From NCBI GenBank assembly GCA_944325655.1, contig CALVAW010000014.1, positions 1-44,335 on the forward strand: DNA of 44,335 bases. The letters are read 5' to 3'. Shown one piece after another: positions 24,566 through 34,093 of this stretch (the first letter of the stretch is position 1; every line of letters starts with the position of its first letter). The notes under the pieces were generated by a model that worked only from the letters and a program-made list of their open reading frames with translations, had not been told where the DNA came from and did not search any database. Made by a program: the position numbers and the translations under genes. Source of the stretch: Candidatus Gastranaerophilales bacterium. Its GTDB lineage: Bacteria; Cyanobacteriota; Vampirovibrionia; Gastranaerophilales; Gastranaerophilaceae.

Positions 24566-25060
24566 ATGAAAAAAGAAAAACTTTTAACTGAAATAAAAGA
24601 AATTTTAACAAAAAACAATTTATCCCTATCCGCAGCAGAAAGCTGCACGGGAGGTTTAGTGAGCTCTTATCTTACCGATATTTCAGGAGCAAGCAAATAT
24701 ATTTTTCAAAATTTTGTAACTTATTCCAATGATGCAAAAATGAAATTTTTGAATGTTAAAAAACAAACTCTTGAAAAATATGGGGCAGTTAGCGAACAAA
24801 CAGCTTTTGAGATGTCCGAGGGGCTTTTAAAATATGCCGATTGCTCTGTAGCAACAACAGGAATATTAGGACCTACGGGAGGAAGCAAAGATAAGCCTAT
24901 AGGTCTTGTTTTTATCTCGGTGGGCTATAAAGATAAAATTAAAGTTGTAAAATATATTTCTAAAAAAGCATCAAGCAACGACAGGTATAAAATCAAAAAA
25001 GATATTGCAAAACGTGCGCTTGAAGAATTTCTTTCATTTATTAAAAATACTCTTAATTAA
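24566..25060 (+). CDS. pncC: PncC-type nicotinamide-nucleotide amidohydrolase (CinA C-domain)
   Basis: 164 residues, a free-standing CinA C-terminal domain. It deamidates NMN to nicotinate mononucleotide in NAD recycling. Visible: SAAESCTGGLVSSYLTDISG near residue 22 (catalytic Ser in AESCTGG), YSNDAKMKFL near 51, YGAVSEQTAFEM near 72, and TTGILGPTGGSKDKPIG near 96. It starts 2 bp after the preceding gene with no clear ribosome site, so coupling is likely. Confidence 0.9.
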   Translation: MKKEKLLTEIKEILTKNNLSLSAAESCTGGLVSSYLTDISGASKYIFQNFVTYSNDAKMKFLNVKKQTLEKYGAVSEQTAFEMSEGLLKYADCSVATTGILGPTGGSKDKPIGLVFISVGYKDKIKVVKYISKKASSNDRYKIKKDIAKRALEEFLSFIKNTLN

Positions 25061-25109: not shown

Positions 25110-26300
25110 ATGATTAATTTAGTTATTGCAGATAAATTTCAAAATACAAAAGATTTTTTAATATCTTACCTCAAAAAGTCAGAAGACATTAAAATTTTAA
25201 AAATCTATGACGAACTAAATTCAATTGTTGAACTTAAAGAAAACCTCAAAAAAATTGACATAGTTATTTTTGATATCTCATCTGACAATTCCGAAGAAAT
25301 ACTTTTAACCGTAAAAAAACTGAAGGAAAAATATGAAAATTTAACTTTTCTTGCAGTATCTTATGAAATAAATTCCGAGCTTGTTACTAAAACTCTAAAA
25401 GCAGGGGTGAGAGAATTTCTGCTAAAACCTCTCATACCAAACATATTTGACGCTACGATAAAAAAAATAAGGGATGAAAAAAATAACATCAAAACCAACA
25501 ATTCAAAAACTGTTTGTTTTTTCTCAAACAAAGGCGGCATAGGAAAAACATCCGCAGCAGTTAATATTTCCTATGAAATAGCAAGAAGAACACAAGAAAA
25601 AACTTGTTTATTGGATTTAAATTTTAACAGTGAAGATGTATGCACATTTTTAAATATTAAACCAAAATTCAATATAGATTTTATTTTAAATAATATTGAA
25701 ACCTCGGATGAAAAACTTTTGCTTTCGTTGTTGTGCAAATATCAAAACACCGATTTATATATTTTATCTCCTCAGGACGACTTTAATCTCGGTTTAAAAT
25801 ATACGCCTGCTACAGTTGCAAAAATAATTAACTCCTTAAAGAATATTTTTTCATATATAATTATTGACACCTCAAGCACCATAAATGAAACAACTTTGAC
25901 TATTTTTAGCAATTCTGATTTAATACTTTTAATCGGAATGCTAAACATAACATCAATCAGAAATTTACAAAAATGTTATGAATTATTTGACAATATAGGC
26001 TATAAAGATGATAAAATAAAGCTGGTAATAAACAGATTTATTGAAAATTCGGAAATTACAACGAAAGACATTGAAAAAGCAACAGGCAAAGAAATTTCTT
26101 ACAAAATTCCAAACAATTATCTGACCTTAATAGATGCAATAAACATAGGTAAAACAGTAGGAGAAGTAAATCCGCAATCAAATATTGCAAAAGCTTACAA
26201 TAACATTGCACAGGAAATTATAAACACTGACTTTTTAAATATAACAAAAAAACCATACAACCACGGGGTTTTTAATTTGCTTAGAAGAATGGGAGAATAA
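25110..26300 (+). CDS. cpaE: CpaE/TadZ-like receiver-ATPase
   Basis: 396 residues. The N-terminal receiver domain (about 1-120) keeps the phosphoacceptor Asp (IVIFDISSD near residue 55) and the conserved Lys (FLLKPL near 108). The MinD/ParA-like ATPase (about 130-380) has the deviant Walker A SNKGGIGKTSAA near 142 and YIIIDTSS near 253. CpaE/TadZ proteins place Tad-type pilus machinery at the pole. No pilin, TadB, TadC or secretin gene is here, so its partner may be only the next gene, 2 bp downstream. A TATAAT lies at 25086-25091, ahead of the start. Confidence 0.82.
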   Translation: MINLVIADKFQNTKDFLISYLKKSEDIKILKIYDELNSIVELKENLKKIDIVIFDISSDNSEEILLTVKKLKEKYENLTFLAVSYEINSELVTKTLKAGVREFLLKPLIPNIFDATIKKIRDEKNNIKTNNSKTVCFFSNKGGIGKTSAAVNISYEIARRTQEKTCLLDLNFNSEDVCTFLNIKPKFNIDFILNNIETSDEKLLLSLLCKYQNTDLYILSPQDDFNLGLKYTPATVAKIINSLKNIFSYIIIDTSSTINETTLTIFSNSDLILLIGMLNITSIRNLQKCYELFDNIGYKDDKIKLVINRFIENSEITTKDIEKATGKEISYKIPNNYLTLIDAINIGKTVGEVNPQSNIAKAYNNIAQEIINTDFLNITKKPYNHGVFNLLRRMGE

Positions 26301-26302
26301 AG

Positions 26303-27700
26303 TTGTCATTAAAAGATAGATTAAATACATCAAACAAAATAACCAAAGAAGCTGAAAACAAAAAGGAAGAGCAAACACCCAAATACTATGAATCAAGTGA
26401 AATTGCAAATGTAGATACATTGGGAATTATAGATACGCTGCTTATTGATGATGACTTAAATTCAATACATGTAAGCGGAGCAAAAAATATATACCTCGAA
26501 AGAAACGGTAAAAAAATCAAAAGCAATACTTTTTTTCGCGATAATGTACAACTTGAAAATTTAATAAGAAAAAATGCTTTAAATGTGGGAATAGAGCCCG
26601 ATGAAACAAATCCTTTTATAAGTTTTAATTATAAAGAAGGAATAAATGTCGCAGCTTCTCTGCCGCCATTAAGTACTCCTGCGAATATATTTATAAAATG
26701 TTATAAAGATAAACACGCAACAATTCAAACCCTTGCAGAAAATTTATGTATTTCAAAAGAAATGTCTTTGATTTTGGAAATTCTTGCAACCATAAAAAAC
26801 AACATTATTATAGCCGGAGAAAGAAACACACTTAAAACAACAACTCTCAGCTCTCTTGCAAAATTACTTCCCAGTAATTCACAAGGTATATTAATTGATT
26901 TTCAAGAAGAATTAAAAATTAATTCAAGAAATTTTTCTAACTTTAATTTTTCAAAAATTCAAAACACCAAAACTAAAATTATAAACTCACTTATAAATTC
27001 AAACAGCGATATGCTATTTATAAATGATCCCGATAAAGAAACAATAGCAGATATATGCGAAAAAATATCGGAAGGATTGGAAGGAGTTATAATAACAATT
27101 TGTGCAAAAAATCCAAAAGAAGCCATGAATAAAATAGCTCTTGCTATTTTAAAACAAAATCCTAATTTAGACTATAAAACCGCAGAAAAATTTGCACACA
27201 AAGCTTTTAATCTTATGATTTTTTGCAACAGACAAGAAAGCGGAAAAAGAAAAATATCATCAATTTCTCAAATAACTTTAGATGAAAACGAAAATTGCAA
27301 GATAGAAGACATTTTCTTCTTAAATCATTTACAAGAACACGAATCCACTGGACTTGTTCCTGAATTTTTTGAAGCAACAAAAGTTAATAATCTTCCCATA
27401 AACTCTAACATCTTTGATAAAACATACAAACATACGTATTGTAAAAATCAAAACAATATCACAATAGAACAATTTAGCCAAAAAAACACCAATCAAGATA
27501 TACTAAAAAAATTTAAAAAAGAACTTCCTACAAAAAATATCCCCGAAGAAGAAACTATCAGAAAAGTTCAAGAAAAGTTTGAAGAAATGAAAAAAAATGC
27601 AAAAGCAGAAGAAACAAAAGAAATAACTTTTTTTGAAGAGGATTTAACCGAACAGCCAATCGAAATAAATCAAACTGAAAATGAACAATCAAACATATAA
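26303..27700 (+). CDS. CpaF/TadA-like protein with degenerate nucleotide-binding site
   Basis: 465 residues from a TTG start, with GGGAGA seven bases upstream. The layout is that of CpaF/TadA secretion ATPases: an N-terminal domain (DTLLIDDDLNSIHVSGAKNI near 40-60, INVAASLPPL near 120), then a RecA-like core. The Walker A is AGERNTLKTTTL near 172, where the Gly before Lys-Thr is Leu. The Walker B region reads SDMLFINDPDKET where GEVR would be, and TIHA is replaced by TICAK. A polar C-terminal extension (about 380-465, Lys/Glu-rich) is extra. It is likely a non-hydrolysing paralogue or scaffold. It pairs with the CpaE-like gene and overlaps ribD by 20 bp. Confidence 0.72.
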   Translation: MSLKDRLNTSNKITKEAENKKEEQTPKYYESSEIANVDTLGIIDTLLIDDDLNSIHVSGAKNIYLERNGKKIKSNTFFRDNVQLENLIRKNALNVGIEPDETNPFISFNYKEGINVAASLPPLSTPANIFIKCYKDKHATIQTLAENLCISKEMSLILEILATIKNNIIIAGERNTLKTTTLSSLAKLLPSNSQGILIDFQEELKINSRNFSNFNFSKIQNTKTKIINSLINSNSDMLFINDPDKETIADICEKISEGLEGVIITICAKNPKEAMNKIALAILKQNPNLDYKTAEKFAHKAFNLMIFCNRQESGKRKISSISQITLDENENCKIEDIFFLNHLQEHESTGLVPEFFEATKVNNLPINSNIFDKTYKHTYCKNQNNITIEQFSQKNTNQDILKKFKKELPTKNIPEEETIRKVQEKFEEMKKNAKAEETKEITFFEEDLTEQPIEINQTENEQSNI

Positions 27701-28754
27701 AAAATTAATGAAAAAATGCATTACTTTAGCTAAAAAAGGTGTGGGCAAAGTTGAACCTAATCCATACGTTGGCGCAATTGTATATGATGAAGAAAAAAAA
27801 GAAATATTATCAGTCGGATATCACCAAAAATACGGATTTGAACACGCTGAAGTAAATGCAATAAAAAATTTAAAAGAAAGTGCTAAAAACAAAACAATCA
27901 TTGTAAACCTTGAACCTTGTTCACATTGGGGCAAAACTCCGCCTTGTGCTGATTTAATTATAAAATCAGGATTTAAAAAAGCTGTTATAGGAATGATAGA
28001 TCCAAATCCGAAAGTAAAAGAAAACGGAATAAAAAAACTAAAAGAAGCAGGAATAGAAGTTCTGGTCGGAATATGCGAAGAAGAATGCAAAAAACTAAAT
28101 AAAGTTTTTATAAAAAATGTGACACAAAATAAACCATATATAATGCTAAAAACAGCAACAACTCTGGACGGAAAAATTGCAACGCCGACTCTAAAATCCA
28201 AATGGATTACAAATGAACTGTCAAGAAATGAAGTACAAAAATTAAGAAGTAAATATCAAGCCATAATGACAGGTTCGGGAACAATATTACATGATAACCC
28301 CAAATTAAACGTTAGAATAAAAAACAAAAAAAATCCGATTAGAATAATTTTTGATCCGAACAATAAAATACCTGTTGATACTGAAAAAATAAATGTTTTT
28401 AAAAATGATTCCGCAAAAATTATTTTAATTAACAATGAAGAGATAAAGATTCCAAACCATATTGAACAAATAAAATTCAAGGATTTTAATTCATTGTTTC
28501 TTGAATTATATAAAAAAGGAATAACATCAATAATGATAGAAGCCGGCGCAGGTCTTAATTCCGAACTTATAAAAGCAGGTGAAGTTGATGAAATTAATCA
28601 ATTTATTTCACCAAAAATATTCGGCTGCGGTCTAAATTTTATTCAAAATTTTAATATAGAAAATGTTGACGAGTGTGTTAAACTAAAAGATGTTAATGTG
28701 AGACATTTTAAAGATGATATTTTAGTTAATGCAATTGTTGAAAAAGAGGTTTAA
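27681..28754 (+). CDS. ribD: Bifunctional riboflavin deaminase/reductase RibD
   Basis: 357 residues. An N-terminal cytidine-deaminase-type domain has VEPNPYVGAIV near residue 24, HAEVNAI near 53, and EPCSHWGKTPPCADLI near 75 with the zinc Cys pair. The C-terminal reductase domain (about 150-357) has KTATTLDGKIAT near 155, SKWITNE near 172 and EAGAGLN near 288. It catalyses the second and third steps of riboflavin synthesis. The other rib genes are not in this window. It overlaps the preceding gene by 20 bp and abuts aroQ. Confidence 0.94.
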   Translation: MNNQTYKKLMKKCITLAKKGVGKVEPNPYVGAIVYDEEKKEILSVGYHQKYGFEHAEVNAIKNLKESAKNKTIIVNLEPCSHWGKTPPCADLIIKSGFKKAVIGMIDPNPKVKENGIKKLKEAGIEVLVGICEEECKKLNKVFIKNVTQNKPYIMLKTATTLDGKIATPTLKSKWITNELSRNEVQKLRSKYQAIMTGSGTILHDNPKLNVRIKNKKNPIRIIFDPNNKIPVDTEKINVFKNDSAKIILINNEEIKIPNHIEQIKFKDFNSLFLELYKKGITSIMIEAGAGLNSELIKAGEVDEINQFISPKIFGCGLNFIQNFNIENVDECVKLKDVNVRHFKDDILVNAIVEKEV

Positions 28755-33001: not shown

Positions 33002-34093
33002 ATGTCTGTTCAATTAAACATTAATCAACCGAAAGAACCAAAAACAAGAAATAAAGGAATTATTAGAGCTATATATGTTCCGACATTAGTGGGTATTCCT
33101 GCAAAAGCAATTAATAAACGAGTTCTGAATTTTATGAAGAAATCTTCACTTATATCCCAAAAAGATTCAATAGAACTCTCAAATGCAGCTCAAGAAGGAT
33201 TAAAACAAACAGGATTGTTTGATAAGGGTGTCAAAGTATATAAAATAAAAGAAAACAGTATTTTATCCGATTTAACAAAGCGTCTCAAAAATTATATATT
33301 CAATCTTTTTAAAAGAAAACCTGAAACAGGTAGCACAACAGACTTTATAGACATACTTAAAGAAGCATTAATATTCAGCGAAGGAGATAAAAAAGCGCTA
33401 AATGCATTAACAGAAGAACTAAGATTAAATAAAGAAATGGCAAAATTTGAACAAAAAGAATCGTGCGAAAGCTTAACGGAACTAATAGTTAAATTACAAG
33501 CTATGGTTTTTAAAGAAGGAAACAACGCTTGTTATCTTCCCTATACAAACAAAATAATAACACCGGATAAATCACTTCAAACTTCAGTATTCCACGAAAT
33601 GGGTCATGCGCTAAATAATAACGGCGGATCTATCTTAAAAAATCTCCAAAAATGCCGTCCGTTAGCCTTGATTGCCCCTTCTGTTATTCTAATGATATCT
33701 TTATTTAATAAAAGAAAAACAACAGATAAACCAAAAGAAAATGATTCAAAAATCCAAAAAGGTGCTGATTTTGTTAAGAAAAATGCAAGCGTGTTAACCG
33801 GCTTATCATTCTTGCCTATGTTTTTAGAAGAAGGCATAGCTTCTCTAAGGGGTCAAAAGATAGCGAAAAATCTTATTAAAGACGAAAAATTATCTAAAGA
33901 ATTATTTAAAAAAATTAAATTAACTAATATCGCCGGTTTCTCAACTTATCTTCTTTCAGGTATTATTACTGCTGTCGCTATATATTTATCAATAAAAGCA
34001 AAAGATGCTATTCAGAAAAAATACGAAATTAAAAAAATGCAAAAATATAAAAATCAAGTTCAAACAAACGAATTAAAAGCGCATCAGGGTTAA
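33002..34093 (+). CDS. Membrane protein with HExxH metalloprotease motif
   Basis: 363 residues. FHEMGHALNNNGG near residue 198 is an HExxH zinc motif, and FLEEGIASLRG near 278 supplies a possible third ligand. Two or three hydrophobic segments are visible, one between the motifs (PLALIAPSVILMISLF, about 223-238) and one after them (FSTYLLSGIITAVAIYLSI, about 319-337). The N-terminal 150 residues are polar and helical. It resembles a zincin anchored in the membrane but matches no family I can name. AAGGAAAA precedes the ATG. A terminator follows. Confidence 0.65.
   Translation: MSVQLNINQPKEPKTRNKGIIRAIYVPTLVGIPAKAINKRVLNFMKKSSLISQKDSIELSNAAQEGLKQTGLFDKGVKVYKIKENSILSDLTKRLKNYIFNLFKRKPETGSTTDFIDILKEALIFSEGDKKALNALTEELRLNKEMAKFEQKESCESLTELIVKLQAMVFKEGNNACYLPYTNKIITPDKSLQTSVFHEMGHALNNNGGSILKNLQKCRPLALIAPSVILMISLFNKRKTTDKPKENDSKIQKGADFVKKNASVLTGLSFLPMFLEEGIASLRGQKIAKNLIKDEKLSKELFKKIKLTNIAGFSTYLLSGIITAVAIYLSIKAKDAIQKKYEIKKMQKYKNQVQTNELKAHQG

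Follow-up and report, generated by a model that had tools for sequence, protein, structure and literature searches.

The locus described here raises the question why a bacterium would keep two neighbouring genes of a Tad pilus operon when no other Tad gene that was searched for is found in its genome, and when one of the two encodes a motor protein whose catalytic residues have been replaced. The window, i.e. the whole stretch of 44,335 nucleotides that was analysed, is contig C14 of a genome of 1.69 Mb that is 98.8% complete. The first gene, of the cpaE/tadZ type (25110..26300, forward strand), encodes 396 amino acids comprising a degenerate receiver domain and a MinD/ParA-type ATPase. After a spacing of 2 bp it is followed by a gene for a CpaF/TadA homologue of 465 amino acids (26303..27700, forward strand) that begins with TTG, a start codon kept in 26 of the 28 genus members examined. 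The sequence GGGAG at 26291..26295 (forward strand), located inside the last cpaE codons, is probably the ribosome-binding site of cpaF; together with the TTG start, its position within the end of cpaE could indicate translational coupling and a low output of CpaF. Upstream lies cinA (24566..25060, forward strand; CinA by Pfam), which is found immediately 5' of the pair in 26/28 genus loci, and downstream lies ribD (27681..28754, forward strand), a landmark of the ancestral tad locus that is directly 3' in 28/28. The first-pass annotation had recognized a CpaE-like protein and a CpaF-like protein with a decayed ATPase site, embedded in a cofactor operon; both reading frames are present as it described, and in view of the conserved cinA and ribD genes its account of the surroundings is fair. 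Elsewhere in the window, positions 33002-34093 encode a 363 amino acid protein with hydrophobic segments and a possible metalloprotease motif (HEMGHALNN), for which no Pfam match was obtained at 0.001.

The search set consisted of 97 genomes, including 28 species of the window genus (g1). The relatives are mostly listed as Candidatus Gastranaerophilales bacterium, with an animal gut as the source wherever one is stated; most genomes are draft metagenome assemblies, and absence is to be understood as absence by search at the thresholds given. The window CpaF found matches in 71 of the 97 genomes at E 0.001, and the CpaE-CpaF pair is present in every one of the 28 sampled species of the genus. 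A TadB query, which represents the platform proteins here, matched 29/97 genomes; within the family these were G038, G042, G043, G049 and G052, and none of the 28 genus members was among them. RcpC was detected in 32/97 genomes and again in 0/28 genus members; four of the five Tad-bearing family genera (all except G052) gave a match, as did G031 below the cut-off. The Flp pilin gave no match in the eight genus members tested, and matches that were all under the curated cut-off in each of the five Tad-bearing family genera. For the window genome, the first impression that no pilin or TadBC gene lies nearby can thus be extended, since TadB, RcpC and Flp are unmatched throughout. Within the family, retention of TadB coincides exactly with intact CpaF motifs, in the same five genera. 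In G029, which has CpaE and no match for CpaF or TadB, a sub-cut-off Flp match at C2:109866-109994 is possibly a leftover pilin. In G043 (L065, 9106-10590) the tad genes adjoin two further genes, which by eye we take to be minD-like and minE-like, in which case CpaE and MinD coexist in this genome.

The relation of the window protein to CpaF is clear from a phmmer match to solved CpaF (E 4e-25), although it remains just under the cut-off of the Pfam T2SSE family (23.6 vs 24.9 bits). Its predicted structure (pLDDT 78.8, pTM 0.72) matches the fold of CpaF 9e24_A over 346 residues with a Z score of 30.3 and an rmsd of 4.2. The three-helix bundle is absent from the genus: 30-55 residues precede the N-terminal domain (NTD) in 28/28 proteins, and 99-121 residues in canonical CpaF copies of the family. 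The window CpaF therefore falls short of the minimum architecture of bundle, NTD and ATPase domain given for CpaF in the excerpted text of PMC12019362.

Sequence alignments revealed that the catalytic motifs are altered throughout the genus. The Walker A segment GERNTLKTT (residues 172-180; 26816..26842, forward strand, as for all following sites) replaces canonical GGTGSGKTT, the Gly before the Lys being Leu in 26 species, Gln in one and Phe in one. In the remnant of the Asp box, D199...E203 (26897..26911), the first Glu has become Asp and the second Glu is kept, both in 28/28. The position of the arginine finger, placed by alignment to R347 of Caulobacter crescentus CpaF after the excerpted PMC12019362 with numbering counted by hand, is occupied by Asn232 (26996..26998), and Arg occurs there in 0/28. 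Asn241-Asp242 (27023..27028) stand for the Gly-Glu of Walker B, each of which is replaced in all 28 species, the Glu by Asp in 17 of them. Finally, Cys267 (27101..27103) takes the place of the catalytic-box His, which is likewise missing from every member, with Glu (10), Cys (9), Asp (4), Ser (2), Asn (2) and Arg (1) as substitutes. The stretch between Asp box and arginine finger counts 25-28 amino acids in 27/28 proteins and 45 in one; canonical copies have 32. All these catalytic positions are canonical in the five Tad-bearing family genomes and in 11 copies that belong to other families within the order.

The three changes on which the first-pass annotation was based (Leu for Gly, Asn-Asp for Gly-Glu and Cys for His) are thus borne out, and the losses go further, as they include the Asp-box Glu, the arginine finger, part of the stretch between these two, and the three-helix bundle. 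Since all 28 genus species share these changes, they are due neither to chance nor to sequencing error, and a recent mutation is ruled out as well. The possibility raised at the outset that relatives carry normal GKT/GE motifs does not apply within the genus (0/28) and does apply at the level of the family, where the normal motifs of the five Tad-bearing genera show the origin of the gene. The interpretation offered in the first-pass annotation, a non-hydrolysing CpaF homologue that forms a localisation or signalling device with a polarity factor, is supported in part: a conserved CpaF homologue with altered catalytic motifs is paired with a polarity-type ATPase where no Tad pilus genes were detected, and a loss of hydrolysis or a role in localisation or signalling would be further steps. 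Invariant in 28/28 proteins are S2, L3, R6, G172, K178, T179, T180, D199, E203 and several C-terminal residues, in an alignment with a mean column identity of 48% and pairs with identity down to 34%. With K178, T179, T180 and other residues fixed in this way, the decay of the site is not random; in part, the site has settled into a new and stable state.

Judging by the invariant Lys-Thr-Thr and D199/E203, CpaF may still be able to bind a nucleotide. The protein might accordingly be regarded as a nucleotide sensor that binds ATP or ADP via the Lys-Thr-Thr without hydrolysis and signals the nucleotide state to CpaE or another machine, for which the conservation of K178, T179, T180, D199 and E203 against a mean column identity of 48%, as well as the retained CpaF ATPase core in the predicted fold, may be cited. 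We nevertheless consider this unlikely: the arginine finger, the Walker B Glu and the Gly before the Lys are all gone, and the related genus g8 (see below) is devoid of the core, so that sensing could at best be specific to some genera.

A canonical cpaF elsewhere in the window genome, which the first-pass annotation had suggested looking for, was not found among the T2SSE matches. These comprise a PilB-size protein (773 amino acid frame), two PilT-size proteins, a GspE-N-terminal-like protein and one sub-cut-off match. The GspE-N-terminal-like protein (468 amino acids; L004 946-2352 on contig C23 of the window genome) adjoins a response-regulator gene (names by eye); it keeps SGKT, and its His-box region is unlike that of typical secretion ATPases. 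T2SSE matches similar to it, at about E 1e-22 to 1e-25, occur in eight of nine genomes searched, with none in G006. It is possibly a second non-motor relative of the secretion ATPases.

The presence of PilB-size and PilT-size homologues allows another explanation, in which CpaE and CpaF now work for the cell's type IV pilus (PilB, PilC, PilT) and determine its polar placement as TadZ does for Tad. T2SSF matches, which are expected for PilC, number two in 24/28 genus genomes, four in one and zero in three, so that 25/28 members have a match of this kind. The three others (G014, G006 and G026), however, keep the pair with neither a T2SSF match nor a T2SSE match of PilB strength. Of these only G014 is more than 90% complete and an assembly gap is possible; taken together, we regard a role in type IV pili as rather improbable.

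It is highly improbable that CpaF is still an ATPase in which Asp for Glu and other substitutes do the work of the canonical residues. The retention of Lys-Thr, the acidic residues at two Asp-box positions in 28/28 and the Asp at the Walker B Glu position in 17/28 are compatible with it, but the Gly before the Lys, the arginine finger, the Walker B Gly and the His are lost in 28/28 proteins, and no TadB platform protein was found that such a motor could drive.

The protein as a whole is under purifying selection. The dN/dS values of CpaF in four close pairs are 0.120, 0.135, 0.129 and 0.124, and those of CpaE in five close pairs are 0.112-0.128, i.e. CpaF evolves as slowly as CpaE; this statement uses close pairs only, as dS is near saturation (0.85-1.06 among the pairs listed). 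More divergent protein pairs gave dN/dS values of 0.25-0.57 among those listed. A recent pseudogene is ruled out by the low dN/dS in combination with the invariant residues.

Judged from its motifs, CpaE is most likely the member of the pair that acts as an ATPase. Pfam assigns the window CpaE to ParA/MinD families, with a weak receiver-domain match in addition, and the protein also matches solved MinD, ParA and CpaE receiver-domain chains. The ATPase domain (AAA_31 match, residues 133-296; 25506..25997, forward strand) contains the P-loop NKGGIGKTS, of which GKT is kept in 28/28 genus members and the signature Lys in 27/28 (both counted by eye). The protein has both the deviant Walker A KGGxGKT and the degenerate receiver domain by which the CpaE/TadZ family is recognized. 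Near its C-terminus the segment GVFNLLRRMGE (26265..26297, forward strand), which is near-constant in the genus, is a candidate membrane-binding amphipathic helix; it has the highest hydrophobic moment within CpaE, a score that is the maximum over several windows and is biased upward.

Comparison across the family indicates where the pair comes from. In G052 (locus L064), CpaE and CpaF are preceded by two genes and followed by two T2SSF-type genes and RibD, with ribD directly 3' of the second T2SSF-type gene, so that a whole tad operon lies beside ribD. In G029 CpaE is found alone between CinA and RibD. The simplest reading of these arrangements would be that the pilus genes around CpaE-CpaF were deleted. 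The Tad genes were lost more than once, as concluded from a CpaE tree in which the Tad-bearing rows of the family are not grouped together (four changes) and from an AU test on a 30-row tree which rejected a single Tad-free clade (p 0.0019) with hand-picked rows and a grouping fixed after the first tree had been seen. The family comprises 31 genera: five Tad-bearing ones, G031, which was left outside the classes because its RcpC match is under the cut-off and its locus ends at a contig end, and 25 others. CpaE is kept in 23 of these 25; G035 and G036 gave MinD-strength matches and none of CpaE strength. Among the 23 Tad-free genera with CpaE, 18 have a CpaF-type or motif-bearing neighbour, four have none (G029, G030, G050, G051) and one locus is at a contig end.

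The partner of CpaE is cut down in different ways. In genus g8, CpaE occurs in 42/46 genomes (matches of E 1e-126 or better), and in 41 of these 42 loci, L169 being the exception, the gene after CpaE encodes a protein of 93-152 amino acids. In their C-terminal part, these small proteins can be aligned to the three-helix bundle of CpaF (hhalign E 9e-9, probability 95.7), an assignment that rests on this profile match since the predicted model is only fair (pTM 0.48) and a fold search returned no PDB match at E 0.001. The g8 proteins are without the motor, whereas genus g1 keeps the opposite part, NTD and core without bundle. A small partner of 126-135 amino acids is also present in all three g20 loci, where its similarity to the CpaF P-loop region is weak (hhalign E 0.007, probability 5.6), and the 315 amino acid neighbour of CpaE at L106 has the N-terminal motif and no profile match. 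At several Tad-free loci (L069, L071, L073, L075, L076, L101, L106) the next gene after CpaE and its partner lies on the opposite strand and encodes roughly 290-400 amino acids. The gene after it is presumably UvrB-like, which would make this a second conserved setting, different from cinA-ribD. That the pair is a decaying relic without function, retained because the loss is recent and essential genes surround it, might explain why CpaF is truncated or absent in several genera, but is the least probable reading given the low dN/dS, residues that do not vary among 28 species whose identity falls to 34%, and an intact small protein in 41/42 g8 loci.

The element of CpaF that is most consistently kept in the cut-down relatives, as far as can be judged from the sequences, is the N-terminal helix starting with MSLKDRL (26303..26323, forward strand). 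In the window protein these residues form the start of a predicted helix (residues 3-15), with S2, L3 and R6 invariant in 28/28. The peptide is common to g1 and g8 (MSLKDRL and MGLAERF), is predicted to be helical in the window CpaF and in one g8 protein, and occurs in other genera as MGLAERF or MTLKDRI. Of the CpaE-adjacent genes in Tad-free family genomes, 34/48 have the strict motif at the first start (3 of the 48 genes are unrelated), as compared to 3/779 control ORFs. In the combined g8 and g20 set (n=45), 33 proteins have the strict motif and 41 a relaxed form within the first 45 residues; the misses include proteins with Lys for Arg (some of g8) and a few with neither residue. Tad-bearing relatives of the order share the motif, as does another family of the same class (L115, L116); several other class members lack it, so that it is not established as a general CpaF feature. 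As it is ancestral to the order, the related genomes do not count as independent samples. A signal at the DNA level as the sole explanation is countered by the varying codons of S2, L3 and L7 and the different residues in other genera; the TTG start in 26/28 and AGA in 27/28 leave this partly open for the window genus.

The explanation that we prefer to the alternatives discussed above, and to which we give about equal credence and doubt, is that the pair outlived the Tad pilus, with CpaE as the working membrane ATPase and CpaF as a non-catalytic partner that acts on it via the N-terminal peptide. The comparisons above show the origin of the pair in a Tad pilus operon, the disappearance of Tad genes, the consistent substitution of catalytic residues, purifying selection, and the persistence of the peptide in partners shortened by different routes. 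Once TadB/C, RcpC and pilin were lost, CpaE would have remained an intact ATPase of the MinD/ParA type whose C-terminus binds the membrane, and CpaF would have given up its motor activity to become its partner. The basic helix MSLKDRL may bind the CpaE dimer and set its ATPase or membrane cycle, possibly by stimulating ATP hydrolysis, and the folded part behind the peptide (the ATPase-dead core here, the three-helix bundle in g8) could link CpaE to another cargo that it would position. With the pilus gone, selection would preserve the contact between the CpaF helix and CpaE. The four Tad-free genera out of 23 that have CpaE and no CpaF-type neighbour count against this explanation, since they imply that the partner is not obligatory. 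The g8 proteins in which the Arg is Lys or missing, the nucleotide binding that CpaF may have kept, and the effect of the CpaF N-terminus on retraction in C. crescentus (see below) count against it as well.

Several reports bear on the proposed contact, all cited here from excerpts. ATPases of the ParA/MinD type dimerize on the membrane or the nucleoid, and their partners act on them via a positively charged disordered N-terminus (PMC10241942). According to PMC13170226, CpaE of C. crescentus is a membrane-associated ATPase of this family that has an amphipathic helix at its C-terminus and is arranged around CpaF, the contacts being predicted ones. Removal of the CpaF N-terminus affected retraction in that organism, a role in the pilus that does not necessarily proceed via CpaE (PMC11300603); this N-terminus matters for pilus dynamics there (PMC11300603, PMC12019362). 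In a wider version of the preferred explanation, which we put forward tentatively and would not yet back, the Tad pilus repeatedly gave rise to a MinD-like spatial organiser of two genes, with CpaF stripped stepwise to an activator peptide and a cargo-binding remnant. The survivors would then be a deletion series from which MSLKDRL emerges as the part that binds CpaE, in functional Tad pili as well.

In Tad pili the CpaE-CpaF interaction rests, in the excerpts consulted, on fitted maps and predicted contacts, and the shortened relatives indicate that a single short peptide is what links the two and has been conserved. If the preferred explanation is true, a pilus motor turned into the non-catalytic partner of a positioning ATPase once the pilus was lost, and one of the many ParA/MinD ATPases lacking known partners would obtain a defined one. 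Among the matches listed for the open-access literature, none described an ATPase-dead or shortened CpaF or the loss of Tad in Gastranaerophilales.

Compared to the Tad motor CpaF/TadA of C. crescentus (PDB 9e24, 8rjf, 8rkd), the window CpaF is alike in the predicted NTD/ATPase fold and the adjacency of cpaE; it differs in that the catalytic residues, arginine finger and three-helix bundle are absent and no TadB was found. The window CpaE shares with CpaE/TadZ of the ParA/MinD family the degenerate receiver domain, the deviant Walker A and an amphipathic-looking C-terminus but, unlike CpaE/TadZ of Tad pili, would work without a Tad apparatus. A role outside pilus assembly is known for Ssd of Mycobacterium tuberculosis, a CpaE-like septum-site protein which, unlike the window CpaE, is encoded in a Flp/tad locus. 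For MinD/MinE, ParA/ParB, FlhG and other pairs of a ParA/MinD ATPase and its partner, the positively charged N-terminus of the partner acts on the ATPase (excerpted text of PMC10241942). The pair described here would follow the same logic, unlike these systems with a former pilus motor as the partner and with a contact predicted from conservation. In this proposed logic there is a further likeness to FlhF.
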